Shown here in pieces: positions 1-11,664 of a DNA stretch of 11,664 nucleotides. Within the stretch, counting starts at the first letter, position 1, and each line of letters starts with the position of its first letter. The notes under the pieces were generated by a model. It searched no databases, was not told the origin of the DNA, and saw only the letters and a list, made by a program, of their open reading frames with translations. Source of the DNA: Pseudomonadota bacterium (GTDB taxonomy: Bacteria; CALINM01); the NCBI GenBank assembly GCA_026415985.1, contig JAOAGA010000057.1, forward strand, positions 1 to 11,664, given 5' to 3'. The position numbers were made by a program, and so were the translations under genes.

Positions 1-1087
1 GTCCCAATGAGTATCCAAGCAAGGCAAAATAGGTCTCCCGCAGTGAAACTTCATCGAAGGCCTTTCTTTGGAAAAGCGTAGATAAAATTGGTTTACCAAA
101 AGAGATAAACACTATCATTGTCGGCAAAACAAAAAGTAAACACATTTTTAAAACCCTTTTGAACTGCCTTCCTGATTCATTTATGTCTCCTGCCCTTGCA
201 CTCTCTGAAATTGACGGAAGTATGGCGGTCGCAAAGGAAACAACTATTACACCTATAGGGATCTCGAGAATTCTGTCTGCATAATATAAATAAGAAACAG
301 TCCCTTCTTTCAAAAAAGAGGCTACAAGTGTATCTACCACGATATTAATCTGAGTTATTGCAAGCCCAAAGAAAGATGGCAATAGCATCTCATAGATAGA
401 CTTAGTAGATGGAGATATAAGGTTTAATCCGAGAGAGGGACTAATATCAATTTTTTTTAAGTAAGGTATCTGTAGCAGAAGCTGTAAAAGGCCACCTAAC
501 AATACTCCAAAGGCAAGGGCGTAAACGGGTAAAGAAAGTATTCCAGAAAGGGAAATAATTCCAAAAATCATCGAGATATTTAGCAAAACCGGAGAAAAGG
601 ATGGGGCAAAAAAATGATTATAGGCATTTAATATCCCCATAAAGATTGCCACCATACATACAAAAAAGAGATAGGGAAACATTAATCTGTTTAGATAAAC
701 AGTAAGATCATAGAGCTCTTTGTTTTTTGTATAGCCGTATGCGAGGAACTTGACAAGAAGAGGGCTTAAAAGGATGCCTAAAAATGTGATTATAAGCAGA
801 ATAAAGAATCCTGATGATATTATACTTTTTATCTCGCTATCCCTGATATCTTTTGGTTTATCCTTAAGATCCGAGACCACAGGAACTATAGCGGGAGTTA
901 GAGCTCCTTCTCCAAGCAATCGTCTGAACATGTTAGGTATGCGAAAGGCCACGAAAAAGGCGTCTGCATAGAAGGAAGTTCCTATAAAACCTGCTATTAC
1001 TGCATCCCTTATATAACCGGTCAATCTACTTAAAAGTGTTGTTGATCCCAAAACACCTACCGCTCTTAAAATGCCTGTTTTTTTCAT
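1..1087 (-). CDS. murJ: MurJ (MviN) lipid II flippase, 3' end cut by window edge
   Basis: This is an inner-membrane MOP-superfamily flippase that moves lipid II across the cytoplasmic membrane for peptidoglycan synthesis. I translated the minus strand from the ATG at 1085-1087. It stays open for 362 codons to the window edge, out of about 500-520 usual for the family. The N-terminus carries MurJ hallmarks: SRLTGYIRD at residues 20-28, then RIPNMFRRLLGEGALTPA at about 49-66. These are followed by successive hydrophobic helices, about ten of the usual fourteen. No in-frame start lies upstream before a stop, so the ATG is secure, although its Shine-Dalgarno is weak (an AAGG about 13 nt upstream). 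It lies 52 bp downstream of the TIG-protein gene on the same strand and may be co-transcribed with it. I see no frameshift in the visible part. Confidence 0.95.
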   Translation of the reverse strand, partial: MKKTGILRAVGVLGSTTLLSRLTGYIRDAVIAGFIGTSFYADAFFVAFRIPNMFRRLLGEGALTPAIVPVVSDLKDKPKDIRDSEIKSIISSGFFILLIITFLGILLSPLLVKFLAYGYTKNKELYDLTVYLNRLMFPYLFFVCMVAIFMGILNAYNHFFAPSFSPVLLNISMIFGIISLSGILSLPVYALAFGVLLGGLLQLLLQIPYLKKIDISPSLGLNLISPSTKSIYEMLLPSFFGLAITQINIVVDTLVASFLKEGTVSYLYYADRILEIPIGVIVVSFATAILPSISESARAGDINESGRQFKRVLKMCLLFVLPTMIVFISFGKPILSTLFQRKAFDEVSLRETYFALLGYSLG

Positions 1088-1139
1088 TTGTGAATGAGCC
1101 TTATCAACTAAAATTGATGTAATATTTCATAATAAATAA

Positions 1140-2027
1140 TCAGGGGATAGTTATGCTATAGGTGTTACTTCTTTCACCTGTTGGATTTTCTAAACTTATT
1201 AAGATATCCTTTGTATCAAAGGTTGTGGGATATATCTTATAGACTATCTCTTTGCAATTGAGGACCTCATATTTATCAAGATTTGGAGAGCTTTTATCCC
1301 TGTTATAGGTTCTGAAATCTTTGTCCTTTTCTCTAATTAACTCACCATTAACGAAAAGTTTTACAGGATATAAAAAATTTCTCCCTGTTATTTTCAAGGT
1401 AAGATTTGTAACCTCTTTTTCCACAATGCCAACTGATTCTATAAAGGGCTTGCTGGTTACCCTTACGGGAACAATATCTTTAATTTTTTCATTTTCATCG
1501 TATAGATAAATATTCAGATTGGAGCTTAAATTGATCAAACTATCTGAAGGTATGTTAATAGTAATCTTATTCTTGCTGGAGTAAAACTGCAAAGCCCCCA
1601 TATCGGGACTTGAAATTTTTTTAACTAAATTAAGATTATCTCCCTCAAGGCTAATGGTAAAATTACCATTGCCACATCTATCTATACTTTCCGGATAAAA
1701 TCTTTTTACACTAAACTCTTTTCTTTTTATAGCTAGGGGAATTGGAGGTAAAAGATCTTTTTTTTCTGACCTGATACGTAAAATATATATCCCTCCTTCC
1801 ATATCAGAAGGAATGCTGAACCTTAACCTATCATTATTTACATACAATGCCTTTAATTCCCTGTCGGCGATTGTAAGTGTGATATTTCCTGTTAAGTCTT
1901 TTCCCGAAAGGGTTATTTCACTACCGGGATAAATGTCTACAGGGCTGATGCTTTGTATTTCAATACCATAGGAAAGTTTTGCTGATATTAATAAGGAAAA
2001 TAAAAGGATTTGCCATTTTTTTTTCAT
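1140..2027 (-). CDS. Exported protein with three IPT/TIG-like Ig domains
   Basis: This 295-residue protein has a signal peptide (residues 1 to about 21: MKKK, a hydrophobic core, then LSYG) and is otherwise extracytoplasmic. The mature part reads as three Ig-like beta-sandwich units. The first, about 22-100, has the classic IPT/TIG opening SISPVDIYPGSEITLSG. The second is about 104-190 (VKRFYPESI... ISLEGDNL). The third is about 193-295 (FIESVG... LKITGRNF... VNGE). IPT/TIG domains bind partners or act as spacers in surface proteins; no catalytic motif is visible. Its ATG overlaps the stop of the upstream gene by 4 bp (ATGA), so translation is probably coupled. Its own Shine-Dalgarno is poor. 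The first codons after the ATG are AAA AAA AAA, an A9 run. The exact function is unknown; the domain call rests on motif pattern only. Confidence 0.8.
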   Translation of the reverse strand: MKKKWQILLFSLLISAKLSYGIEIQSISPVDIYPGSEITLSGKDLTGNITLTIADRELKALYVNNDRLRFSIPSDMEGGIYILRIRSEKKDLLPPIPLAIKRKEFSVKRFYPESIDRCGNGNFTISLEGDNLNLVKKISSPDMGALQFYSSKNKITINIPSDSLINLSSNLNIYLYDENEKIKDIVPVRVTSKPFIESVGIVEKEVTNLTLKITGRNFLYPVKLFVNGELIREKDKDFRTYNRDKSSPNLDKYEVLNCKEIVYKIYPTTFDTKDILISLENPTGERSNTYSITIP

Positions 2028-2638
2028 TTCGTGTCAGTTCTTATCTTGGCCGGGTATTTGAGGAAAAACATATAGTCTTCCATATCAGAGCCAATCTTGA
2101 TATAGGTTATCTCAAAACCTTCCTTTAAATATCTGAAAGTTACTCTGCCTGTGGGGGATTTTATCTTTTCATCTTCAATTCCTAAGAGAAAATGGCGGAG
2201 TTCATCGTCTGTGGCAAGCTGATGGGAAAGAAGTTTTTTTGTATTTCCAATTGCATACTTCGCCAAACCGGGAAACAAAACGATTCTTCTAACCATGTCA
2301 TCGTTATCAAAAACTACTGCAAACAGAGGATCTTTTTTATCCTTATAGAAATATATACCCATCTCGTTTATCTCATCCGGATGACCCAAAACCTTTAAAA
2401 GATATTCTTTAGCATCACCGATCTTAATACCCTTAACGGCAATTTTAAGAGAGTTTATGTTAGGTATTGCTGTTATATCAATCTTTGTAATCTCATACTC
2501 TTCGCCAGTCTTATAGATTAACGGAGATGTAAAATGGGGCTCCCTGTCCGGTTGTTTTTTTTGTTGAGCCACATCTACCAAACCATAAAGGTTGCCGTAT
2601 AAAAGAAGCAAAAAGAGTAAAATCTTTAAAAATTTCAT
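2024..2638 (-). CDS. Small exported protein with BamE/SmpA-like motif, function unknown
   Basis: This 204-residue protein has a hydrophobic signal peptide (residues 1 to about 19, MKFLKILLFLLLLYGNLYG). No cysteine follows the core, so it is not a lipoprotein. Residues about 70-125 read GIKIGDAKEYLLKVLGHPDE, then a YFY strand, FAVVFDNDDMVRRIVL. This helix followed by strands around an 'lGxPd' turn is seen in BamE/SmpA-OmlA-like and related small periplasmic domains. I cannot assign a function or say that it belongs to the Bam complex. The stop overlaps the start of the TIG-protein gene (ATGA), suggesting the two products are made together and may interact. There is no convincing Shine-Dalgarno before the ATG, and 41 bp separate it from the pncA stop. 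Confidence 0.75.
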   Translation of the reverse strand: MKFLKILLFLLLLYGNLYGLVDVAQQKKQPDREPHFTSPLIYKTGEEYEITKIDITAIPNINSLKIAVKGIKIGDAKEYLLKVLGHPDEINEMGIYFYKDKKDPLFAVVFDNDDMVRRIVLFPGLAKYAIGNTKKLLSHQLATDDELRHFLLGIEDEKIKSPTGRVTFRYLKEGFEITYIKIGSDMEDYMFFLKYPAKIRTDTK

Positions 2639-2665
2639 AAAACAATTAGTATGTTACACCATTTT

Positions 2666-2692
2666 AATAAAAAATCAAATTATAATTGATTT
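2666..2692 (-). terminator. Possible weak AT-rich terminator after pncA
   Basis: On the minus strand, AAATCAA (2686-2692) can pair with TTGATTT (2672-2678) over 7 bp with a 7-nt loop. The second arm runs into a T tract (2669-2674), then ATT. The stem has only one G-C pair and overlaps the pncA stop, so it would be weak and might allow read-through into the next gene. A competing hairpin (ATTGAT/ATCAAT, 2685-2700) overlaps it. Confidence 0.35.
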
Positions 2693-3213
2693 GAATCAAT
2701 AAAAATAACACCCCTCTTTGTTAACTCCTTGATAGTTTCTTCTTCCGTAGTTCTGCTTAAGGCCTTTGTAGCATCTTTGACAATATAAGTTTTAAACCCC
2801 CTTTGTATAGCATCTTTGGCAGTTTCCTTTACACAATAATCCAAGGCAAGTCCCGCAAGAAAAATTTCATCAACCTTTTTTCCCCGCAGGTAATCTTCCA
2901 AATCAAGATTCTCTGCCTCAAAGGCGGAATAACCTTTATCTTCATTAGTAGTTCCCTTATAAAAAACCTCATCTATCTTTTCCTGTCTTAACTCGTTAGG
3001 GAAGTCTGCTCCTTTTGTTTTTTCGATACAATGGGGTGGCCATCTGTTAAAATGTTTAGTGTCAGTTTTATGCCAATCTTTTGAAGCAACTACTATATCA
3101 AATTTATCCATAATTTTATTAATCACCGCAACGATTTTATCTCCTTCCGGCACAGGCAGTGCCCCATTAGGACAAAAATCATTTTGTAAATCAACTATTA
3201 AAAGTGCTTTCAT
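2680..3213 (-). CDS. pncA: Nicotinamidase
   Basis: This isochorismatase-family amidohydrolase deaminates nicotinamide to nicotinate in the cytoplasm, the first step of the PncA/PncB NAD salvage route. All expected active-site residues are visible in the 177-residue product. Asp8 (in LLIVDLQNDF), Lys86 (in FYKGT) and Cys127 (in LDYCVKET) form the catalytic triad. Asp46, His48 (KDWH) and His61 (PPHC) form the metal site. Length is typical of archaeal and bacterial PncA. The start is supported by an AGGAGG that overlaps the pncB stop codon (TAGGAGG, 3219-3225), only 9 bp after the end of pncB, so the two genes form one transcript and act consecutively. A possible AT-rich terminator overlaps the 3' end. 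Confidence 0.96.
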   Translation of the reverse strand: MKALLIVDLQNDFCPNGALPVPEGDKIVAVINKIMDKFDIVVASKDWHKTDTKHFNRWPPHCIEKTKGADFPNELRQEKIDEVFYKGTTNEDKGYSAFEAENLDLEDYLRGKKVDEIFLAGLALDYCVKETAKDAIQRGFKTYIVKDATKALSRTTEEETIKELTKRGVIFIDSNQL

Positions 3214-3222
3214 AACAGCCTC

Positions 3223-4647
3223 CTAATCATTTTTATCCCAACCTTGTTTTAATTCATTAATTATTTTTTCTCTCATAGCAAAAAGCTTTTCACTTATATA
3301 TATGTTATAAGGATTGCTAACTTTTAGTTTCAGAAGCCTCTTCGGCAACATTTCTATTCTTTTTTCAGAAAAACTGGCCATATATTCAAGAGGTTCTTTT
3401 TTAATTATTATTTTGCCATTGTCCAACACCTTTTTTAACAATCTCTCAGATCCTGATAAACCGGGATTTTTTATCTTTTTTTCACCGTCTAAACTATATA
3501 AAGTGTTAACAACTTTCTCATTTTCCAGAGATATTACGTCACATAAGAATTTTTCATCTTTTTTTAATCTTAATATGTTTTTTCTCCCGGGCAGTAAAAT
3601 CTTTTCCTTCTCTTCCGAAATTTTTAGCCTGTCCTTACCACCAAAATAGACAAGCTTATAGACACCGTCCAAGGCGGAATCGCCATGACCTGTTACAAGG
3701 TTTGTCCCTACACCAAAGACATCTACAGGGGCCTTTTTTCTGTTTAATTTGTCAATGACAAATTCATCAAGTTTATTTGATGCAATAATTTTTACATAGT
3801 CAAGACCTGCTTTATTTAGCATATTTCTTGAAATTTTACTTAGTTTTGCAATATCTCCGCTATCAATTCTAACACCTATTAGTTTGTGTCCTTCTTTTTC
3901 AAGCTTTTTTGCTATTTTTATGGCATTAGGTATCCCGCTTTTAACAGTGTTGTAAGTATCGACCAGTAAAATAGTCTTATCCGGATATATCTTTGAGTAG
4001 TTTAAGAAGGCTTCATACTCACTATCGAATGACTGGACAAAGGAATGTGCCATCGTCCCAACAGGCTTGATTCCGAACTTAAAGGCAGAATATAAGTTTG
4101 AAGTTTCCTTAATACCACCTATTACAGCAGATCGGGTAGCATATATACCCGCTAAGGACTGCGCCCTTCTCAACCCAAAATCAACTACAACCCTATCTCC
4201 TGCAACTAATTTAATTCTTCTTGCTTTCGTTGCAATAAGGGATTGAAAGTTAATTATATTAAGAAGTAATGTTTCAATAATTTGTGTTTCTATTATGTTA
4301 CCTTCTACTCTTATCACCGGTTCCTTTGGAAAAACGACCTCTCCCTCTTTGACAGAGTAAATTGTCCCCTTGAAATGAAAATTTTTTAGATAGGACAGAA
4401 AGTCATCTTTAAAACCTAAGGATTTCAGATAAACTAAATCTTCATTATCAAACTTAAACTCCGTAAGGGCATCTAAAAGAGTCTCCAGTCCTGCAAATAC
4501 AACAAAACCGCCCTCAAAAGGTGTTTTTCTGAAGAAATAATCAAAAATTGCATAATCTTTATCTCTTCCGGAAAGATAATAAATCTGAGCCATTGTAAGT
4601 TCGTAAAGGTCTGTAAACAGACCTGAATGCTTATCTAAATAGCTCAT
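3223..4647 (-). CDS. pncB: Nicotinate phosphoribosyltransferase
   Basis: This cytoplasmic enzyme joins nicotinate to PRPP, giving nicotinate mononucleotide and pyrophosphate, usually with ATP hydrolysis. The 474-residue protein opens with the family signature LFTDLYELTMAQ (10-21). It has the phosphoribosyl-site stretch VDFGLRRAQ (155-163), and GTMAHSFVQS (197-206), where His201 matches the histidine that is phosphorylated in characterised family members. Further family motifs are VDTYNT and IRIDSGD-like (VRIDSGDI), and FGVGTNLVT. The length matches the longer PncB2-like subgroup. It is followed directly by pncA, which produces its substrate. The ATG has no recognisable Shine-Dalgarno. A possible promoter (TTGCAA 4677-4682, TAATAA 4655-4660 on the minus strand) would start transcription at or next to the ATG. 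Confidence 0.96.
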   Translation of the reverse strand: MSYLDKHSGLFTDLYELTMAQIYYLSGRDKDYAIFDYFFRKTPFEGGFVVFAGLETLLDALTEFKFDNEDLVYLKSLGFKDDFLSYLKNFHFKGTIYSVKEGEVVFPKEPVIRVEGNIIETQIIETLLLNIINFQSLIATKARRIKLVAGDRVVVDFGLRRAQSLAGIYATRSAVIGGIKETSNLYSAFKFGIKPVGTMAHSFVQSFDSEYEAFLNYSKIYPDKTILLVDTYNTVKSGIPNAIKIAKKLEKEGHKLIGVRIDSGDIAKLSKISRNMLNKAGLDYVKIIASNKLDEFVIDKLNRKKAPVDVFGVGTNLVTGHGDSALDGVYKLVYFGGKDRLKISEEKEKILLPGRKNILRLKKDEKFLCDVISLENEKVVNTLYSLDGEKKIKNPGLSGSERLLKKVLDNGKIIIKKEPLEYMASFSEKRIEMLPKRLLKLKVSNPYNIYISEKLFAMREKIINELKQGWDKND

Positions 4648-4654
4648 AATTAAA

Positions 4655-4682
4655 TTATTATCATAAAATTAGATATTTGCAA
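4655..4682 (-). promoter_or_regulatory. Possible pncB promoter placing the transcript start at the ATG
   Basis: On the minus strand, TTGCAA (4677-4682) is followed after 16 nt by TAATAA (4655-4660), preceded by TGA that could act as an extended -10. The -10 lies 7 nt before the pncB ATG, so transcription would start at about the first codon, in line with the absence of a Shine-Dalgarno. The matches are moderate and the region is very AT-rich, so a chance match is quite possible. Confidence 0.3.
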
Positions 4683-4728
4683 TAATCCACATATATAAAT
4701 ATCTCTTCATTTTCTGTTTTAATTTTGG

Positions 4729-4757
4729 TTAACCTATTTTGTAAAAAATAATATAAT
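4729..4757 (+). promoter_or_regulatory. Possible promoter of the YchF-like gene
   Basis: TTAACC (4729-4734, four of six to TTGACA) is separated by 17 nt from a perfect TATAAT (4752-4757), predicting transcription from about 4764 and a leader of about 30 nt. The -35 overlaps an 8-bp palindrome GGTTAACC (4727-4734). The AT-rich surroundings make a -10 match less informative. Confidence 0.45.
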
Positions 4758-4784
4758 AATGTTACTAAACATATTTTAAACATT

Positions 4785-4790
4785 GGGAGG
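4785..4790 (+). promoter_or_regulatory. Shine-Dalgarno that fixes the YchF-like start at 4795
   Basis: GGGAGG sits 4 nt before the TTG at 4795. The in-frame TTG at 4783 overlaps this element and so cannot be served by it. The extra N-terminal residues it would add (Leu-Gly-Gly-Ile) have no counterpart in the family, whose P-loop strand starts within a few residues of the initiator. Confidence 0.8.
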
Positions 4791-4794
4791 TATT

Positions 4795-5862
4795 TTGAAA
4801 GTAGCAATTAGTGGTTTTGAAAAAACCGGAAAAACAACCCTTTTCTGTGCAGTAACAGGTCTAAACTTAAACATATCCTACGGACAAACCTCTGAAAATG
4901 AAATTAATGAAGGAATTGCAGTAGTTTACGACGAAAGGATTAATACACTTTCAGAGATTTTTAAACCTAAAAAGACCACTTACGCTGTAATTGACTATAA
5001 AGATCTGCCGGGTTTAAATCCTAACGATTCAAAAAGAAATCAAAAAATTTTAGACAATTTAAAAGATTCAGATTTGGTGATTAATGTAATCAGAGCATTT
5101 GAAGACTCTTTTACAGTTCACCCCTTCGGAACTATTAATATTGAACGTGATATGAAAAGTTTTGAGAGTGAGTTACAACTGGTAGATATGATTTTAGCCG
5201 AAAAAAGAATAGAAAGAATTGAGAACAATATAAAACGTGGAATTAAAGAAAAGGAAGAGGAGCTAACACTTTTCAAAAAAATATATGAGCACTTAAATAA
5301 TGATCTGCCAGTTAGAACATTGGAATTCAATGAAGAAGAAAAAAAAATACTTTCACCCTATAAGTTTCTTTCTGCAAAACCACTTATTCATTTAATAAAC
5401 TTAGGGGAAAAGGATGTAATAGACACAGTACGTTATAAAAACATGATTAAAGATAAACATTCTGACTTGATATATCTCTCTGCAAAGATTGAAAAGGAGC
5501 TTACAGAACTTCCCGAAAATGAAAGAATTAACTTTCTCAACGAATTAGGTATTACAGAGCCCGCATCTTATAAGCTTGTTAGAGCCTCATATTCTTTGTT
5601 AGGGCTGATATCATATTTTACCGTTGGAGAAGATGAGGTTAGGGCATGGACGATCAAAAAAGGAGCTAACGCTAAAGAAGCAGGGGGGAAGATTCATTCT
5701 GACATAGAGAGAGGATTTATAAGGGCAGAAGTGGTATCTTATGAGGATTTTATTAAACATGGTGGTTTAAAAAAGATTAAAGAGCTGGGTCTATTAAGAC
5801 TGGAGGGGAAGGACTATATAGTTAATGACGGTGATATAATGAATTTTCGTTTTAATGTTTAA
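4795..5862 (+). CDS. Divergent YchF/OLA1-family P-loop NTPase
   Basis: This is a 355-residue protein from the corrected TTG start, close to the length of E. coli YchF (about 363). The C-terminal TGS/DUF933 region is well preserved: SYFTVGEDEVRAWTIKKGA at about 273-291, IHSDIERGFIRAEVVSYEDF (300-319) and EGKDYIVNDGDIMNFRFNV to the end. The NTPase half is eroded. The P-loop reads GFEKTGKT (7-14) rather than the family's GLPNVGKS. The usual G3 DIAGL is replaced by DYKDL (67-71), with Asp where the Gly should be, and the switch-I FPF(C/T)TI-type motif is missing. The YchF-type G4 NxxE is kept as NLGE (202-205), which in YchF gives ATP preference. YchF proteins bind ribosomes and stress-linked partners. 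I infer a second, specialised paralogue rather than the housekeeping YchF. No terminator is clear after it. Confidence 0.85.
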   Translation: MKVAISGFEKTGKTTLFCAVTGLNLNISYGQTSENEINEGIAVVYDERINTLSEIFKPKKTTYAVIDYKDLPGLNPNDSKRNQKILDNLKDSDLVINVIRAFEDSFTVHPFGTINIERDMKSFESELQLVDMILAEKRIERIENNIKRGIKEKEEELTLFKKIYEHLNNDLPVRTLEFNEEEKKILSPYKFLSAKPLIHLINLGEKDVIDTVRYKNMIKDKHSDLIYLSAKIEKELTELPENERINFLNELGITEPASYKLVRASYSLLGLISYFTVGEDEVRAWTIKKGANAKEAGGKIHSDIERGFIRAEVVSYEDFIKHGGLKKIKELGLLRLEGKDYIVNDGDIMNFRFNV

Positions 5863-5909: not shown

Positions 5910-5938
5910 TTGACAAAAAAATTTCATAAAAGTATGAT
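5910..5938 (+). promoter_or_regulatory. Strong sigma70-type promoter for the cytochrome operon
   Basis: A perfect TTGACA (5910-5915), an exact 17-nt spacer and TATGAT (5933-5938, five of six) give a near-consensus housekeeping promoter. Transcription would start at about 5945, leaving a leader of about 40 nt before the cytochrome ATG. It is the best promoter match in the window and probably serves the whole downstream gene run. Confidence 0.8.
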
Positions 5939-5967: not shown

Positions 5968-5977
5968 AAAGGAGGTG
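5968..5977 (+). promoter_or_regulatory. Consensus Shine-Dalgarno that fixes the cytochrome start at 5984
   Basis: AAAGGAGGTG is close to a perfect complement of the 16S 3' end and lies 6-7 nt before the ATG at 5984. The in-frame GTG at 5975 is part of this element and is therefore not the start. Strong promoter and strong ribosome site together suggest a highly expressed protein. Confidence 0.85.
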
Positions 5978-5983
5978 AATAAA

Positions 5984-6310
5984 ATGAAAAAGTTAATCAG
6001 TGCTATTTTGGTAGTATCAGTTATGGTTCTCTTCTCAAGCTTCGTGTCAGCAGAGATGAAAGATACCTATGAGTTTAAAGGTGGTTCAATGGGAAAGATA
6101 ACATTCAATCACAAAGCTCACCAGGATCTTTTGAAAGACTGCAAGATCTGTCATCATAAAGATGAGGCTGGTAAAGAAAATGCTTGTGGAACCTGTCACA
6201 CAAAGGACTCTAAGGTAAAGGCTAAAGATGCTTTCCATAACAATTGTCAGAAATGTCATAAAGAGATGAAGAAGGGACCAACAGGTTGTAAGGATTGTCA
6301 TAAGAAATAG
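5984..6310 (+). CDS. Small periplasmic tetraheme cytochrome, c3/c7 (PpcA-like) family
   Basis: This class III cytochrome would carry electrons through the periplasm between the inner membrane and outer-surface cytochromes. The product is 108 residues with a clear signal peptide (cleavage after VSA, residue 23), leaving a mature protein of about 85 residues. Four CxxCH sites are visible: CKICH, CGTCH, CQKCH and CKDCH. Candidate distal ligands are the two His in FNHKAH, the second His of CKICHH and the His of AFHNNC, which matches four bis-His haems. The C-terminal CHKEMKKGPTGCKDCHKK closely resembles the end of Geobacter PpcA as I recall it. PpcA, however, is a trihaem c7 lacking haem II, which is present here. 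It is the first gene of the cytochrome run, with its own strong promoter, and is followed by a hairpin before resB. Confidence 0.93.
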   Translation: MKKLISAILVVSVMVLFSSFVSAEMKDTYEFKGGSMGKITFNHKAHQDLLKDCKICHHKDEAGKENACGTCHTKDSKVKAKDAFHNNCQKCHKEMKKGPTGCKDCHKK

Positions 6311-6326
6311 TGTATCTTAAAAAGTA

Positions 6327-6350
6327 AGGGGGGGCATAAAAGCCTTCCCT
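6327..6350 (+). other. Intercistronic hairpin between the small cytochrome and resB
   Basis: AGGGGGGGC (6327-6335) pairs with GCCTTCCCT (6342-6350) over 9 bp, including two G-U pairs, around a 6-nt loop ATAAAA. No T-run follows, so it is unlikely to be a full intrinsic terminator. A 3'-end stabiliser, processing site or partial attenuator that lets the small cytochrome be made in excess over ResB/CcsA is more likely. It is unusually G-rich for this AT-rich sequence. Confidence 0.6.
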
Positions 6351-6377
6351 GTTCATACATCAAAGGAGCAAAATTTA

Positions 6378-7715
6378 ATGACAAAGAAAAAGTTTGATTT
6401 TTTTGACTTTCTTGCCTCAATTAAGTTAGCGGTAATATTATTGATAATTTTAGCGATTACCTCCATTTTTGGCACAGTTATTCCTCAAAATGAAAGCTTT
6501 GACAGATATGTCCATATGTATGGTGAGATATGGGCGAGAATTATAGCTACTTTCGAGTTGTATGATATGTATCACTCCTGGTGGTTCATCTTCTTGCTTG
6601 CCTTTTTTACATTGAACCTTATTGTCTGTTCAGTAAAACGGCTTCCTCCGGTTATAAATCAGATAAAAAGTCCTAACAAAATCCTTGATGAAAACCTCGA
6701 AAAGAGCTTAACCCTTGTAGATACATTAAAAAAGAAAGGTGATCCGGATAGTTGGATTAAGACAATAAAAGATTATCTATCAAAGAAATTTGGCACGGTA
6801 GAAGAACAAGAGATTGATGGCAAGACCTATTTTTACGTTGAAAAAGGAAGATACTCCCGTTTAGGGGTTTACATAACTCATTTAAGTATAATAATTATAA
6901 TGATCGGGGGAATGATTGGTGCAATATGGGGTTTCAGAGGATTCGTTCAGATACCTGAAGGTGAAGCGGTTAATTATGTTTTTATTCGTGGCAAAAATCA
7001 ACCTCACAATATTGACTTTATTATAAAATGTGATGATTTTTCATTGAGTTACTATCCAATGGGTATGGTTAAGGAATACAGATCCGATGTATCTATAATC
7101 GAAAACGGTAAAGTGGTAAAAAAAGATTATCTTATTGTAAATAAGCCACTAACTTACAAAGGGCTTACCTTCTATCAATCAAGCTACGGAGTTATTGACA
7201 GGCTGGGTAAAGTTGTAGCCTTCACCAAAGGAGGAAACTCTAAAATCTATGAATTATCTCTTTCTGAAAAGTTTACCAATATCCCCGGAAGTAATGACTA
7301 TGTGAGGATAATTGATTATTATCCAAACCTCGATAATGTAGGACCTGCTATAATTTTACAAGTTGCAGAAGAGGGCAAGATGCCCGTTAATTTACCTGTT
7401 TATAAAAACTTACCAGATAAAGATATGTATCCTGAAGGAAAATATTTTTTCAAATTCGGCGATTATAGCGAGACCCACTATACGGGCTTACAGGTAACTA
7501 AAGATCCAGGGGTATGGGTTGTTTGGATCGGATGTATTTTAATGATGATTGGGTTATATGTAAGTTTTTTTGTTAACAGAAAAAGGGTTTGGGCAAGGGT
7601 TTATTTTGAAGGAGACAGAACATCTATAACTATCGCAGGGCACTCTCCGCGAACAAGGCTTTTTGAAGAAGAGTTTGCCAAGATTTTAGAAGATATAAAA
7701 GAATTAAAAGTTTAG
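6378..7715 (+). CDS. resB: System II cytochrome c biogenesis protein ResB (Ccs1)
   Basis: ResB forms, with CcsA/ResC, the inner-membrane complex that exports haem and ligates it to CxxCH sites of apocytochromes. The 445-residue protein has the family layout: two N-terminal membrane segments (about 12-34 and 66-86), a third at about 162-186, a large periplasmic domain, and a fourth segment at about 378-398. His168 in the third segment (VYITHLS) matches the conserved membrane histidine proposed as a haem ligand. Family motifs include TVIPQ (33-37), NKPLTYKGLTFYQSSYG (255-271) and the KDPGVWVVWIGC lead into the last helix. An AAAGGAG (6362-6368) precedes the ATG by 9 nt. The gene sits between cytochrome genes, so it probably matures the products of this operon. 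The ccsA Shine-Dalgarno overlaps its stop. Confidence 0.96.
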   Translation: MTKKKFDFFDFLASIKLAVILLIILAITSIFGTVIPQNESFDRYVHMYGEIWARIIATFELYDMYHSWWFIFLLAFFTLNLIVCSVKRLPPVINQIKSPNKILDENLEKSLTLVDTLKKKGDPDSWIKTIKDYLSKKFGTVEEQEIDGKTYFYVEKGRYSRLGVYITHLSIIIIMIGGMIGAIWGFRGFVQIPEGEAVNYVFIRGKNQPHNIDFIIKCDDFSLSYYPMGMVKEYRSDVSIIENGKVVKKDYLIVNKPLTYKGLTFYQSSYGVIDRLGKVVAFTKGGNSKIYELSLSEKFTNIPGSNDYVRIIDYYPNLDNVGPAIILQVAEEGKMPVNLPVYKNLPDKDMYPEGKYFFKFGDYSETHYTGLQVTKDPGVWVVWIGCILMMIGLYVSFFVNRKRVWARVYFEGDRTSITIAGHSPRTRLFEEEFAKILEDIKELKV

Positions 7716-7723
7716 GAGGAGAT

Positions 7724-8587
7724 ATGGAAGGCTCCCTTTTTATAAGTGGGAAACTTTTATCAGTTACAACCTTTGTTTATTTTCTTGCTATGTTCTTCTA
7801 CTTCATTTATCTGGTATCAAAAAACAATACTGTCGGGCTGTTCGGAACTATCGCTACACTTGCCGGTTTTTTTGTTGAGACAGGTGGTTTGGTTCTGCGG
7901 TGGGTTGAGTCCTATCAGTTGGGTATTGGAAGACCACCTCTCACAAACCTGTATGAATCACTTGTGTTTTTTAGCTGGTGTACTGCGGGAATATACCTGG
8001 CCTTTGAGTTTTATTATAAAAACAGATTTATGGGGGCCTTTGTATTACCTTTTGTATCTGCATCAATGGCTTTTGCCTCTTTTTCGCCAAATATATCTCA
8101 GGAGATTCAACCCCTTGTTCCCGCACTGCAAAGTAACTGGTTAATTTATCATGTTATCACCTGTTTCTTTGCCTATGCTGCCTTTGCGGTTGCTGCGGGT
8201 GTAAGCATAATGTATGTAATTAAATTCAGAAAAGAAGAAAAAAAACTACCATTAGGACCGATACTTTCTCTTTTTCCAACTACACCAACCCTTGATGATA
8301 TAAATTATAAGGCAATTGCTGTCGGTTTCCCTATGCTCACTCTCGGTATAATTACTGGTGCTGCCTGGGCTAACTATGCATGGGGTAGCTACTGGAGTTG
8401 GGACCCTAAGGAGACCTGGTCCCTGATCACATGGTTTGTATACGCAGCATTTTTGCATGCAAGGTTTACCCGAGGCTGGAGAGGTAAAAAGGCAGCATGG
8501 TTGTCTATTGTGGGTTTTATTTCCGTTATTATCACATATTTAGGTGTAAATCTCCTCTTGTCCGGTTTACATAGCTATGCAAGTTAA
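7724..8587 (+). CDS. ccsA: System II cytochrome c biogenesis protein CcsA/ResC (also named CcsB)
   Basis: This polytopic inner-membrane haem-handling protein is the partner of ResB. The 287-residue product has about eight hydrophobic segments. It carries the signature tryptophan-rich WWD motif at residues 215-232 (WANYAWGSYWSWDPKETW), which binds haem facing the periplasm. Candidate conserved histidines are His143 (WLIYHVIT), His245 (FLHARF) and His283 (GLHSYA), of which the family uses two pairs to hold haem. The RPPLTNLYESL stretch (70-80) is also typical. The ATG follows an AGGAGGA (7714-7720) that overlaps the resB stop. Its end overlaps the next cytochrome gene by 11 bp, so the maturation factor and its likely substrate are translationally linked. 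The gene is intact, with no fusion to ResB. Confidence 0.96.
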   Translation: MEGSLFISGKLLSVTTFVYFLAMFFYFIYLVSKNNTVGLFGTIATLAGFFVETGGLVLRWVESYQLGIGRPPLTNLYESLVFFSWCTAGIYLAFEFYYKNRFMGAFVLPFVSASMAFASFSPNISQEIQPLVPALQSNWLIYHVITCFFAYAAFAVAAGVSIMYVIKFRKEEKKLPLGPILSLFPTTPTLDDINYKAIAVGFPMLTLGIITGAAWANYAWGSYWSWDPKETWSLITWFVYAAFLHARFTRGWRGKKAAWLSIVGFISVIITYLGVNLLLSGLHSYAS

Positions 8588-10259
8588 AAAAAGAGAAAGA
8601 TTATTTTTTTTATTACTACGTTCTTTAACAATAATAACTCTTTTTTTTCCTGTTTTTTTATGGAATGACTATCTCTATTCTCAGACAAACTGTTTAGAAA
8701 AGGGCTGTCATGATACTTTCTTAAAGGAAAAAAATATCCATGCTCCGGTCAGAGGTAGAAACTGTGAGAAGTGCCATATTGGTGATGATCACCCCTTTAA
8801 GTTAATAAAAGAAAAAAATGAACTTTGCAGTATATGCCACAAATCAGTGGGGAAGCAAAAAGAAAAGCATCCTCCGGTAAAAGACGGTGATTGCACTTCC
8901 TGTCATAACCCACATACATCTCGCCATGATAAACTTTTAATTAAGCCTCTTAACGATATCTGTTTTGAATGCCACGATAAAGCTCCCTTCTCAAAGAAGG
9001 TGATTCATCCTCCTCTTTCTGATAGTTGTCTCAGTTGCCACAACCCTCATGACAGTTCCCATAAAAAATTGCTTAAAGATAGCGGAAGTAGTCTCTGTTA
9101 TTCCTGCCATAACAGACAGGATGAACAAAAAACAGTCCATCCACCGGTAAAAGACGGTGACTGTCTGAGCTGTCATAACCCTCATTCACAGAACGTAAAG
9201 GGCTTGCTGATAGAGGACGGAAACAAGCTATGTTTTGTCTGCCATAGTGAAAAAGACTATGTTGGGAAAAAAATTAATCATAAACCCGTTTCTGATGACT
9301 GCAAAAATTGTCATTTCCCACACAGTGGCAAGTTTGGTAAGCTTCTTAAGTCAGAAAATGTATGTATCGACTGCCACGGCAGTATGGTCGATGGAAAGGT
9401 AGTCCATCCACCGGTAGGTAGTAAAGAATGCCTCTCCTGTCACACCCCTCACACATCGGAAAATAAAAATATTCTGTTAAAATCTGTTCCCGCTATATGC
9501 TTTGAGTGCCATGAAAAGGGTCCCTTTGTAAAAAAGTTTATACACAAACCTGTAAAGTCTGAATGTTATCTATGCCATAAATCTCACAGTGCCAAGAATG
9601 AAAAACTTTTAGCTGAAAAAAAGGAGAAACTATGCGAGGTCTGCCATACTGATTTTATGAAAAATATTGACAAAGCTACAGTAATGCATCCACCGGTAAA
9701 AAACAGAGAATGCGAAAGTTGTCATAATGTTCATTCAAGTGAGTATAAAAAGGTGTTAAACGATGACCCCGCCCTTTTATGCAATAAATGTCATAATATT
9801 GGAAACATAAAGTTGGCAAAATCTGTTCATGCTCCCGTTGAAGAAGGCTCCTGCGGTGCCTGCCACAGCGTTCACGGCGGTTCAATAAAAAAGCTTTTGA
9901 ACAAAAAATATCCCGAATCTAATTACTTAGCCTATAGCCCTAAACTTTTTGAACTATGTTTTGACTGTCATTCCCAGGATTTAGCAAAACATAGAAAAAC
10001 ACTCACCGCAACCGATTTCAGAAATGGTGATCTCAATCTCCATTTTGTCCATGTAAATAAAGAAAAGGGTAGAAACTGCAGATTCTGTCATAACCCCCAT
10101 ATGAGTGTTCAACCTAAATTAATAGTTCCAGAATTTAAGGGTTTTGGTATATGGAATATTCCTATTCAGTTTACAAAGACATTAACCGGTGGAAGTTGTG
10201 TTGTTGGTTGCCATAAGCCCTATTACTACGATAGGCTGAAACCCTTTAATAACAAGTAA
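8577..10259 (+). CDS. Large repetitive multiheme cytochrome c, 21 potential haem sites
   Basis: This 560-residue exported protein has 19 CxxCH motifs (first Cys at 63, 84, 106, 129, 151, 174, 196, 219, 242, 263, 285, 308, 330, 353, 379, 402, 426, 461 and 501). It also has a CX4CH (39-45) and a CX3CH (541-546). Many sites follow the doubled-CXXCH pattern, CxxCHNPH then LLxxxxxxxCxxCH. About nine units open with HxPV, recurring every 42-48 residues. The C-terminal part (about 466-560) departs from the repeat and is aromatic-rich (GFGIWNIPIQF, YYYDR). The N-terminus (basic KKRER, hydrophobic 9-29) is a signal peptide or anchor with no clear cleavage site. Start: an ATG overlapping ccsA by 11 bp with little Shine-Dalgarno; no other start lies near. 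The likely role is long-range electron transfer outside the inner membrane. Its location (periplasm or cell surface) is not settled by sequence. Confidence 0.93.
   Translation: MQVKKRERLFFLLLRSLTIITLFFPVFLWNDYLYSQTNCLEKGCHDTFLKEKNIHAPVRGRNCEKCHIGDDHPFKLIKEKNELCSICHKSVGKQKEKHPPVKDGDCTSCHNPHTSRHDKLLIKPLNDICFECHDKAPFSKKVIHPPLSDSCLSCHNPHDSSHKKLLKDSGSSLCYSCHNRQDEQKTVHPPVKDGDCLSCHNPHSQNVKGLLIEDGNKLCFVCHSEKDYVGKKINHKPVSDDCKNCHFPHSGKFGKLLKSENVCIDCHGSMVDGKVVHPPVGSKECLSCHTPHTSENKNILLKSVPAICFECHEKGPFVKKFIHKPVKSECYLCHKSHSAKNEKLLAEKKEKLCEVCHTDFMKNIDKATVMHPPVKNRECESCHNVHSSEYKKVLNDDPALLCNKCHNIGNIKLAKSVHAPVEEGSCGACHSVHGGSIKKLLNKKYPESNYLAYSPKLFELCFDCHSQDLAKHRKTLTATDFRNGDLNLHFVHVNKEKGRNCRFCHNPHMSVQPKLIVPEFKGFGIWNIPIQFTKTLTGGSCVVGCHKPYYYDRLKPFNNK
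8868..9181 (+). repeat. DNA-level trace of the cytochrome repeat (two copies, 270 bp apart)
   Basis: The 44 bases at 8868-8911 recur at 9138-9181 with 8 differences, and the first 23 bases differ at only one. Both encode HPPVKDGDC(T/L)SCHNPH. The 270-bp distance is two haem-pair units (90 residues). A weaker third match is at 9689 (CATCCACCGGTAAAA). This points to growth of the gene by tandem duplication of a double unit. Confidence 0.7.
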
Positions 10260-10263
10260 CATT

Positions 10264-11196
10264 ATGAAAAAGACTTTTTTCTTTTTGTTTTTTTTTATAT
10301 CATTATTAATAATTAAAAAATTGGAGGCCATTACTATTATTACGCCAGAAGACGGAAGTTACGTTAGTTCATCATTTTTTTATGTAGTAGGCAGGGTTCA
10401 AAACCCCTCTGCTACTCATATTGTTGTTACAGTCAACGATTTAAAGTCTCCGTTAATATATATTAAAGATCCTGAATACATTAGTCAGTTCAAAGATTTT
10501 TTTATAATAGATTTAGAGTTAGAGCAGGGAGAAAATCTTATTGGGATCAAGGCTTTTAAAGATAATGTTCAGATAGAGGAAAAAAAGATAAAGGTTAACA
10601 AAGTCGGTAAATATGAGGAACTTCCCAAAGGCAAGAAGAGGTACTTTTTCCACAGTCCCGTTAAGGAAGAAAGTTGCACCGACTGTCACAAAATTGACAA
10701 AGAAAGCTGTTTAGAATGCCACAAGGGTATTATTTCAAGGAAATATGTTCACGGTCCTGCAGGCTCTGGAGACTGTGATGTCTGCCATAGCTTCTCTGAA
10801 GTAAATGGCTATAAATATTCTCTGAAAGAAGATATAGAAAATATTTGTTTTGAATGTCATAGCGATATGAAAAAAGATAATTTTAAATATCTCCACGGTC
10901 CCTTTGCGGTAGGTAACTGTAATTTATGCCACAACGTTCACTCATCTGATTATCCTCAACAGTTACTCTTTTCGGTAAACGAGCTATGTAAGACCTGTCA
11001 TACAGAGTTTAAGGAAAAGGGGAAAGTTCATGTATTACCCAAACACCCCCTTGAGAATAGAAAGGATCCATCAAGACCCGGTAAGGATCTTTCCTGTGCC
11101 AGTTGCCATAACCCCCATGGACAGGAAGGAAACTTATTTTTCCCTCAGGGGAAAAAAAGCAGGATGGAAATATGCGGAATCTGCCATAAAAAATAA
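10264..11196 (+). CDS. Octaheme cytochrome c with N-terminal Ig-like domain
   Basis: This 310-residue exported protein has a signal peptide (1-22, cleavage after KLEA). An all-beta region at about 23-112 opens ITPEDGSYV, a start typical of Ig-like or glucodextranase-B-like domains, and ends in GENLIGIKAFKDNVQIEEKKIKV. It is followed by a haem region with eight CxxCH sites (first Cys at 138, 149, 171, 195, 219, 242, 278 and 304). Units again start HxPV/HGP and include CHNVHSS and CHNPHG, so it shares the doubled-CXXCH architecture with the upstream protein. The beta domain may dock the cytochrome onto an outer-membrane or surface partner. The gene begins 4 bp after the upstream stop with almost no Shine-Dalgarno, so translation is probably coupled. 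I do not recognise a named orthologue with certainty. Confidence 0.9.
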   Translation: MKKTFFFLFFFISLLIIKKLEAITIITPEDGSYVSSSFFYVVGRVQNPSATHIVVTVNDLKSPLIYIKDPEYISQFKDFFIIDLELEQGENLIGIKAFKDNVQIEEKKIKVNKVGKYEELPKGKKRYFFHSPVKEESCTDCHKIDKESCLECHKGIISRKYVHGPAGSGDCDVCHSFSEVNGYKYSLKEDIENICFECHSDMKKDNFKYLHGPFAVGNCNLCHNVHSSDYPQQLLFSVNELCKTCHTEFKEKGKVHVLPKHPLENRKDPSRPGKDLSCASCHNPHGQEGNLFFPQGKKSRMEICGICHKK

Positions 11197-11207
11197 GGAG
11201 TTTAAAA

Positions 11208-11664
11208 ATGAAAAAACTAATCTTACTATTATTTATTATCTTATTGTCTTCCTGTGCACCTAAACAACAGGAGGTTAAAAAACAGAGATACTTCTGGCCA
11301 CCACCTCCAAACGACCCCAAGATAGAGTTTATTGGAGTTTATAGCTCAAGCAGAGATCTGCCAAAAGAAACAAATTTTTTAAGAACACTTACCGGCGATA
11401 CGGAAGTGGAGATCAGATTGAGAAAGCCCCTTAATATAGCTTCAGATGGAGAAGGGATCGTCATTATTACAGATATGGTTCCGTGGGGTGGTTATATCTG
11501 GGATTTTAACCAAAATAAGGTTCAACAGATTACCGAAGATGCGGCTTTTCAGCTTACTACTGGTGTAGCCTTTGACAGCACAAGATTTTATATTTCTGAT
11601 GGTCGTGCAGGTGATATTAAAGTTTTTGCGAAAAAAGGCAGGAGTCCTCTATATACAATAGGAA
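11208..11664 (+). CDS. Outer-membrane-type lipoprotein, probable NHL/6-bladed beta-propeller, cut at window edge
   Basis: Translation from the ATG at 11208 (AAGGAG at 11195-11200, overlapping the upstream TAA) stays open to the window end, giving 152 codons. Residues 1-16 form a lipoprotein signal with the lipobox LSSC (Cys16). Ala follows the Cys, so there is no inner-membrane retention Asp. Next comes YFWPPPPNDPKIEFIGVY (28-45), a lead-in I associate with propeller lipoproteins found beside multiheme cytochromes. Then come blade-like repeats: LNIASDGEGIVIITDM and GVAFDSTRFYISDGRAGDIKVF, the latter matching NHL strands. A tethered propeller could serve as a scaffold or assembly partner for the neighbouring cytochromes; that is inference. 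The rest of the gene lies outside the window. Confidence 0.82.
   Translation, partial: MKKLILLLFIILLSSCAPKQQEVKKQRYFWPPPPNDPKIEFIGVYSSSRDLPKETNFLRTLTGDTEVEIRLRKPLNIASDGEGIVIITDMVPWGGYIWDFNQNKVQQITEDAAFQLTTGVAFDSTRFYISDGRAGDIKVFAKKGRSPLYTIG

Follow-up and report, generated by a model that had tools for sequence, protein, structure and literature searches.

A probable OmcE-type cytochrome operon from beyond the Geobacter phylum

The window analysed here is a whole contig of 11,664 nucleotides (JAOAGA010000057.1; G000:C114) from a 1.57 Mb genome that is 84% complete. Six collinear genes on the + strand, spanning positions 5984-11664 in the list of open reading frames (ORFs), encode a PpcA-like tetrahaem shuttle cytochrome, the ResB and CcsA subunits of a cytochrome c synthase, a 21-haem cytochrome, an octahaem cytochrome and an NHL propeller lipoprotein. 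These genes very probably represent the 5' three quarters of an operon for an OmcE-type extracellular cytochrome filament, their order being orthologous to ppcA-resB-resC-GSU0615-GSU0616-GSU0617-omcE of Geobacter. In Geobacter relatives this locus produces protein nanowires that carry electrons to the cell exterior. The system is of a known kind, and its gene order is complete in this thinly sampled phylum, a new lineage for it.

Conservation of gene order in two phyla

The genes are separated by 67, 8, −11, 4 and 11 bp, in gene order, and this spacing together with the conservation of the locus suggests that the six genes form an operon and would be co-transcribed. The three cytochrome genes hold 4 + 21 + 8 = 33 haem sites. 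CXXCH motifs occur 31 times in the three + frames and not once in the three − frames, which is far above chance. A preliminary description of this DNA had given six genes, spacings of −11 to 67 bp and 33 haem sites, and the ORF and motif counts agree with it. At 11664, the right edge, the assembly breaks off within the propeller gene, as read from the window coordinates and the truncated match to a sister genome.

G. sulfurreducens was outside the searched genomes (best OmcE match 64%), and its locus was compared through its relatives and through the published locus tags, in which PpcA is GSU0612, ResB GSU0613, ResC GSU0614, GSU0615-0617 a predicted unit and omcE GSU0618 (PMC8691401, PMC1829397, PMC2700814). 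Twelve loci from relatives of Geobacter, selected for their likeness to the OmcE structure 7tfs (44-64%), show the order ppcA-resB-ccsA-multihaem-octahaem-propeller-omcE-barrel, which is also that of the sister genome G002 and, as far as the propeller, of the window. ResB, CcsA, the octahaem protein, the propeller and OmcE are present in all 12, the multihaem protein in 10 and the shuttle in 9, and an ORF of 737-806 amino acids (aa) follows OmcE or a further propeller in 11 of the 12. The window genes contain the collinear series shuttle-ResB-CcsA-multihaem-octahaem-propeller of the Geobacter-type operon. There are also differences: in the ppcA-omcE locus of Geobacter the shuttle has three haems against four in the window, and the large cytochrome of the Geobacter relatives, which belong to a different phylum, has about 9-11 haems against 21.

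Close variants of the same eight-gene order are found in the Desulfuromonadales order, where the octahaem protein is present in 41 of 136 genomes, surrounded by ResB-CcsA or a tetrahaem shuttle, a large cytochrome, one or two propellers, OmcE and a barrel-like protein of ~750 aa. These clusters begin with ResB-CcsA or a tetrahaem shuttle and go on with multihaem protein, propeller, octahaem protein, propeller, OmcE and barrel; the extra propeller between the two cytochromes has no counterpart there in the window. The likeness to GSU0612-GSU0618 that the preliminary description had noted is thus borne out by the 12 loci and the locus tags. Its suggestion of a non-Geobacter lineage also holds, since the phylum of the window genome comprises only three genomes in the searched set, all of one family. 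The conserved module that it proposed is seen as synteny across two phyla, with a role in extracellular electron transfer as a prediction.

Two other kinds of system invite comparison. One is the osc (omcS companion) operon, for which Shen et al. (2025, as cited in PMC13194489) likewise describe a cytochrome filament gene with companion genes. The two operons are likened here by description only, OmcS has six haems, and the window shows no folding gene of the OscH type. The OscD companion of the osc operon is reportedly propeller-like. The OetABI and Mtr porin-cytochrome conduits likewise have multihaem cytochromes near an outer-membrane barrel, whereas the barrel-like protein of the sister genomes has no clear Pfam or PDB match to conduit porins.

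Proteins and signals of the window

The first gene (5984..6310, +) encodes a PpcA-like periplasmic tetrahaem c-type cytochrome of the c3/c7 family (Pfam Cytochrom_CIII, 2.4e-13). Its PDB matches are PpcA/c7, and its match to NCBIfam CytC7_Geobact (7e-19) lies below the family cut-off. The gene is preceded by a strong ribosome-binding site (GGAGGT, 5971-5976, +) and, 46 bp upstream, by a promoter-like site TTGACA-N17-TATGAT (5910..5938, +) that has 11 of 12 consensus positions, although such matches are no proof. Ahead of resB, in the gap that follows the shuttle gene, lies an RNA hairpin (6327..6350, +; −18.5 kcal/mol, z −2.5), a possible transcript stabiliser or attenuator, and a different hairpin occupies the same place after the shuttle gene of G002. 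The ribosome-binding site, the promoter-like site and the hairpin would fit a higher expression of the shuttle. In G. sulfurreducens, ppcA has been predicted to be a separate transcription unit (PMC1829397).

The next two genes encode ResB (6378..7715, +; alias CcsB/Ccs1; Pfam ResB, 1.6e-107) and CcsA/ResC, the haem export and ligation subunit (7724..8587, +; Pfam Cytochrom_C_asm, 7e-62). CcsA scores 303 bits against the NCBIfam CcsB equivalog TIGR03144, over the cut-off, and its WWD motif reads WGSYWSWDPKE; the pair therefore has the make-up of a System II cytochrome c synthase, namely ResB plus a CcsA with a WWD domain. A tree of CcsA places the family of the window outside the clade of the Desulfuromonadales (95/94), although the outgroup branches are long and the root is unsure. 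Given this position, a recent horizontal transfer from the sampled Desulfuromonadales is not favoured, while an older one may have taken place.

The 21-haem cytochrome (8577..10259, +) is of the doubled-CXXCH type (Paired_CXXCH_1, 5e-101) and 57% identical to its G002 ortholog. The count of 21 comprises 19 CXXCH and two non-standard motifs, an N-terminal CX4CH (CLEKGCH) and a C-terminal CX3CH (CVVGCH). Among the members of this large-cytochrome family scoring >200 bits, the C-terminal CX3CH is present in 44 of 44 and the N-terminal CX4CH in 38 of 44, and the number of CXXCH between the two ends varies, giving totals of 9 to 25 haems. This pattern would suit a wire of variable length spanning the periplasm.

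The octahaem cytochrome (10264..11196, +; 8 CXXCH; Paired_CXXCH_1, 3e-29) carries an N-terminal Ig/Fn3-like domain. This head (about residues 20-115) was modelled by AlphaFold2 with predicted local distance difference test (pLDDT) values of 61-93, and Foldseek relates it to Fn3/Ig modules (best E 3.4e-5); the model of the haem part was unusable, and only the Ig-like head was interpreted. The last gene (11208..11663, +), open at the contig end, encodes the N-terminal 152 aa of an NHL beta-propeller lipoprotein with the lipobox LSSC. The fragment has no Pfam match of its own; it is 59% identical to a 360-aa G002 ortholog whose NHL repeats are recognised at 1e-24. By the E. coli rule, Ala after the lipobox Cys directs a lipoprotein to the outer membrane, and sorting of this protein there is likely.

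Positions 1-5862 of the window have a housekeeping look, with part of a MurJ-like transporter, two small exported proteins, a nicotinamidase adjoining a nicotinate phosphoribosyltransferase, and the GTPase YchF. YchF and the TIG domain of one of the small exported proteins were identified by family searches, and the others were named by reading alone.

OmcE-like genes in the sister genomes and type II secretion

The preliminary description had predicted a surface cytochrome or porin downstream, and both sister genomes continue past the propeller with an OmcE-like tetrahaem cytochrome and a barrel-like protein. In G002 (contig C139, sister genus) the order is tetrahaem protein, ResB, CcsA, 21-haem protein, octahaem protein, 360-aa NHL propeller lipoprotein, 231-aa tetrahaem cytochrome and 789-aa protein, after which comes a TMEM260-like membrane protein. 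G001 (sister genus) has the same order from the ResB end onward, with several reading-frame breaks. These breaks (L034, G001:C31) lie in the genes for the large cytochrome, the octahaem protein and the barrel, and the third OmcE CXXCH is replaced by CFSSH, which may reflect either decay or assembly error.

The 231-aa protein matches the OmcE filament structure 7tfs (E = 3.6e-25; 35-37% identity) and the structure 9yuq (E = 5.5e-27). In a comparison of seven proteins, which include the OmcE-like protein, its paralogs, the Desulfuromonadia counterparts and 7tfs, eight His are invariant, of which four belong to CXXCH motifs and four lie elsewhere. Judging from their conservation with 7tfs, the four His outside CXXCH would be the distal haem ligands, and the sister-genome protein has the full OmcE-type set of four CXXCH and four such His. 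OmcE makes up a filament whose structure was determined by cryo-EM, and OmcE filaments have been reported in G. sulfurreducens from which omcS was deleted (reviewed in PMC12307469). The likeness to that filament is seen in the sister-genome proteins only, which may polymerise in a similar way. The 789-aa barrel-like protein of G002 has a signal peptide and a C-terminal Phe, and a fragmented counterpart exists in G001. The C-terminal Phe is found in all aligned barrel members, and the G002 barrel profile matches the same-place protein in several Desulfuromonadales-order loci.

In the window genome, neither the rest of the propeller gene nor the barrel gene lies on any other contig. Since these and the omcE ortholog are all absent from the assembly, the right edge points to a gap rather than to the end of the operon, and omcE is presumably present in the window species itself.

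A second OmcE-like gene lies on contig C79 of the same genome (L054:1939-12392), where the genes for a propeller, for a tetrahaem protein of 285 aa and for a protein with seven or eight haems are directly followed by the type II secretion genes F, E and D and by pseudopilins. The 285-aa protein matches 7tfs at 5e-12 and keeps the same eight His. The G002 locus agrees in the part that was read (L055), and the order propeller-tetrahaem-heptahaem-GspF-GspE-GspD was found in 8 of 10 Desulfuromonadales-order genomes read there (L229-L238), which links an OmcE-like gene with type II secretion in two phyla. Geobacter needs the pilin PilA-N for the export of OmcS and OmcZ, and the PilA-N pilus resembles a type II pseudopilus (PMC12307469). 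The linked block suggests an export route for filament subunits, and that on C79 may also serve the window operon.

Related cytochromes occur elsewhere. Of 79 loci (L057-L135) drawn from many phyla, among them Calditrichota, Bacteroidota and Gammaproteobacteria, 60 have an NHL propeller gene on the same strand as an OmcE-like or related cytochrome gene and no more than 1.5 kb away from it, and the two seem to travel together. Genome G011 encodes a 1036-aa protein with 42 CXXCH adjoining an NHL propeller (L040:7981-11091). Contig C142 of the window genome (L035:3333-6068) encodes a doubled-CXXCH multihaem lipoprotein adjoining a 594-aa protein with no Pfam match, which may be a barrel and part of a possible second outer-membrane conduit.

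Possible function, rival readings and meaning

The gene content suggests how such an operon could work. ResB-CcsA would export haem and attach it to the CXXCH and CX3CH/CX4CH sites, and the PpcA-like shuttle and the 21-haem protein would carry electrons across the periplasm. The octahaem protein with its Ig-like head, the propeller lipoprotein and the barrel-like protein might together form an outer-membrane station, which would pass electrons to an OmcE-like polymer outside the cell and help to assemble or anchor it.

Several points weigh against a filament operon. No omcE ortholog was found in the window assembly, which contains only a paralog (1.3e-11); the G002 barrel candidate has no Pfam or PDB match; AlphaFold2 models of the 21-haem protein reached a mean pLDDT of 38 and gave no usable structure; filament formation is not readable from sequence; and there is dispute over how much OmcE matters in Geobacter for current and for the reduction of Fe(III) oxide (PMC13194489). 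The barrel alignment had no PDB match and one weak Porin_4 match (E 0.002) in 1 of 12 members, although divergent barrels can be missed by such searches. Alternatively, the locus could be a periplasmic or outer-membrane electron conduit whose species has lost the OmcE-like gene, which would explain the missing ortholog and has a parallel in the Desulfuromonadales-order locus L185, where the octahaem gene and a barrel-sized ORF have no OmcE between them. However, the contig breaks before the expected place of omcE and also lacks the 3' half of the propeller gene, and both sister genomes have kept omcE; we regard this loss as improbable. A respiratory system for a soluble acceptor, with DmsE- or NrfB-like cytochromes serving a reductase, seems more remote still. 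The 21-haem protein does exceed the cut-off of the DmsE decahaem model (207 against 192 bits), but the match falls into five stretches and comes from shared doubled-CXXCH repeats. With 21 haems and no reductase gene in or beside the operon of the sister genomes, the protein does not belong to the DmsE decahaem family.

A further question, compatible with a filament operon, concerns the ResB-CcsA pair, which the preliminary description had called the operon's own haem-ligation system. The pair is present, but its dedication may be overstated, as it is the only canonical one in the genome. There is about an even chance that it is the general cytochrome c synthase of the cell, placed in a cytochrome operon by chance. 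The window genome and G002 (92% complete) have a single canonical ResB each (283 and 266 bits), the remaining ResB-like genes being short or divergent (C77, 60 bits; C11, 39 bits, adjoining a 232-aa CcsA-like gene); one further CcsA-like protein lies among haem biosynthesis genes, a HemX-like placement. On the other hand, the pair stays with the operon in two phyla, and Geobacter has four ResB/ResC pairs, each by multihaem cytochromes, which have been suggested to be dedicated (PMC2700814).

Going beyond an OmcE-type operon as such, one may speculate, at rather long odds, that all eight genes form a single, self-sufficient nanowire module that predates the two phyla or has moved between them. 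The large cytochrome would then span the periplasm as a wire adjustable in length (9 to 25 haems, with mostly CX4CH/CX3CH ends) and hand electrons straight to the filament base, and the subunits would be exported by the type II secretion system that in both lineages is linked with a further OmcE-like gene.

The assembly and anchoring of cytochrome filaments have been named an open question (PMC12307469). The whole omcE operon, beyond the filament gene alone, keeps its order beyond the Geobacter phylum, and this conservation makes the octahaem protein with its Ig-like head, the propeller lipoprotein and the barrel-like protein good candidates for the station at which the filament is assembled or anchored.

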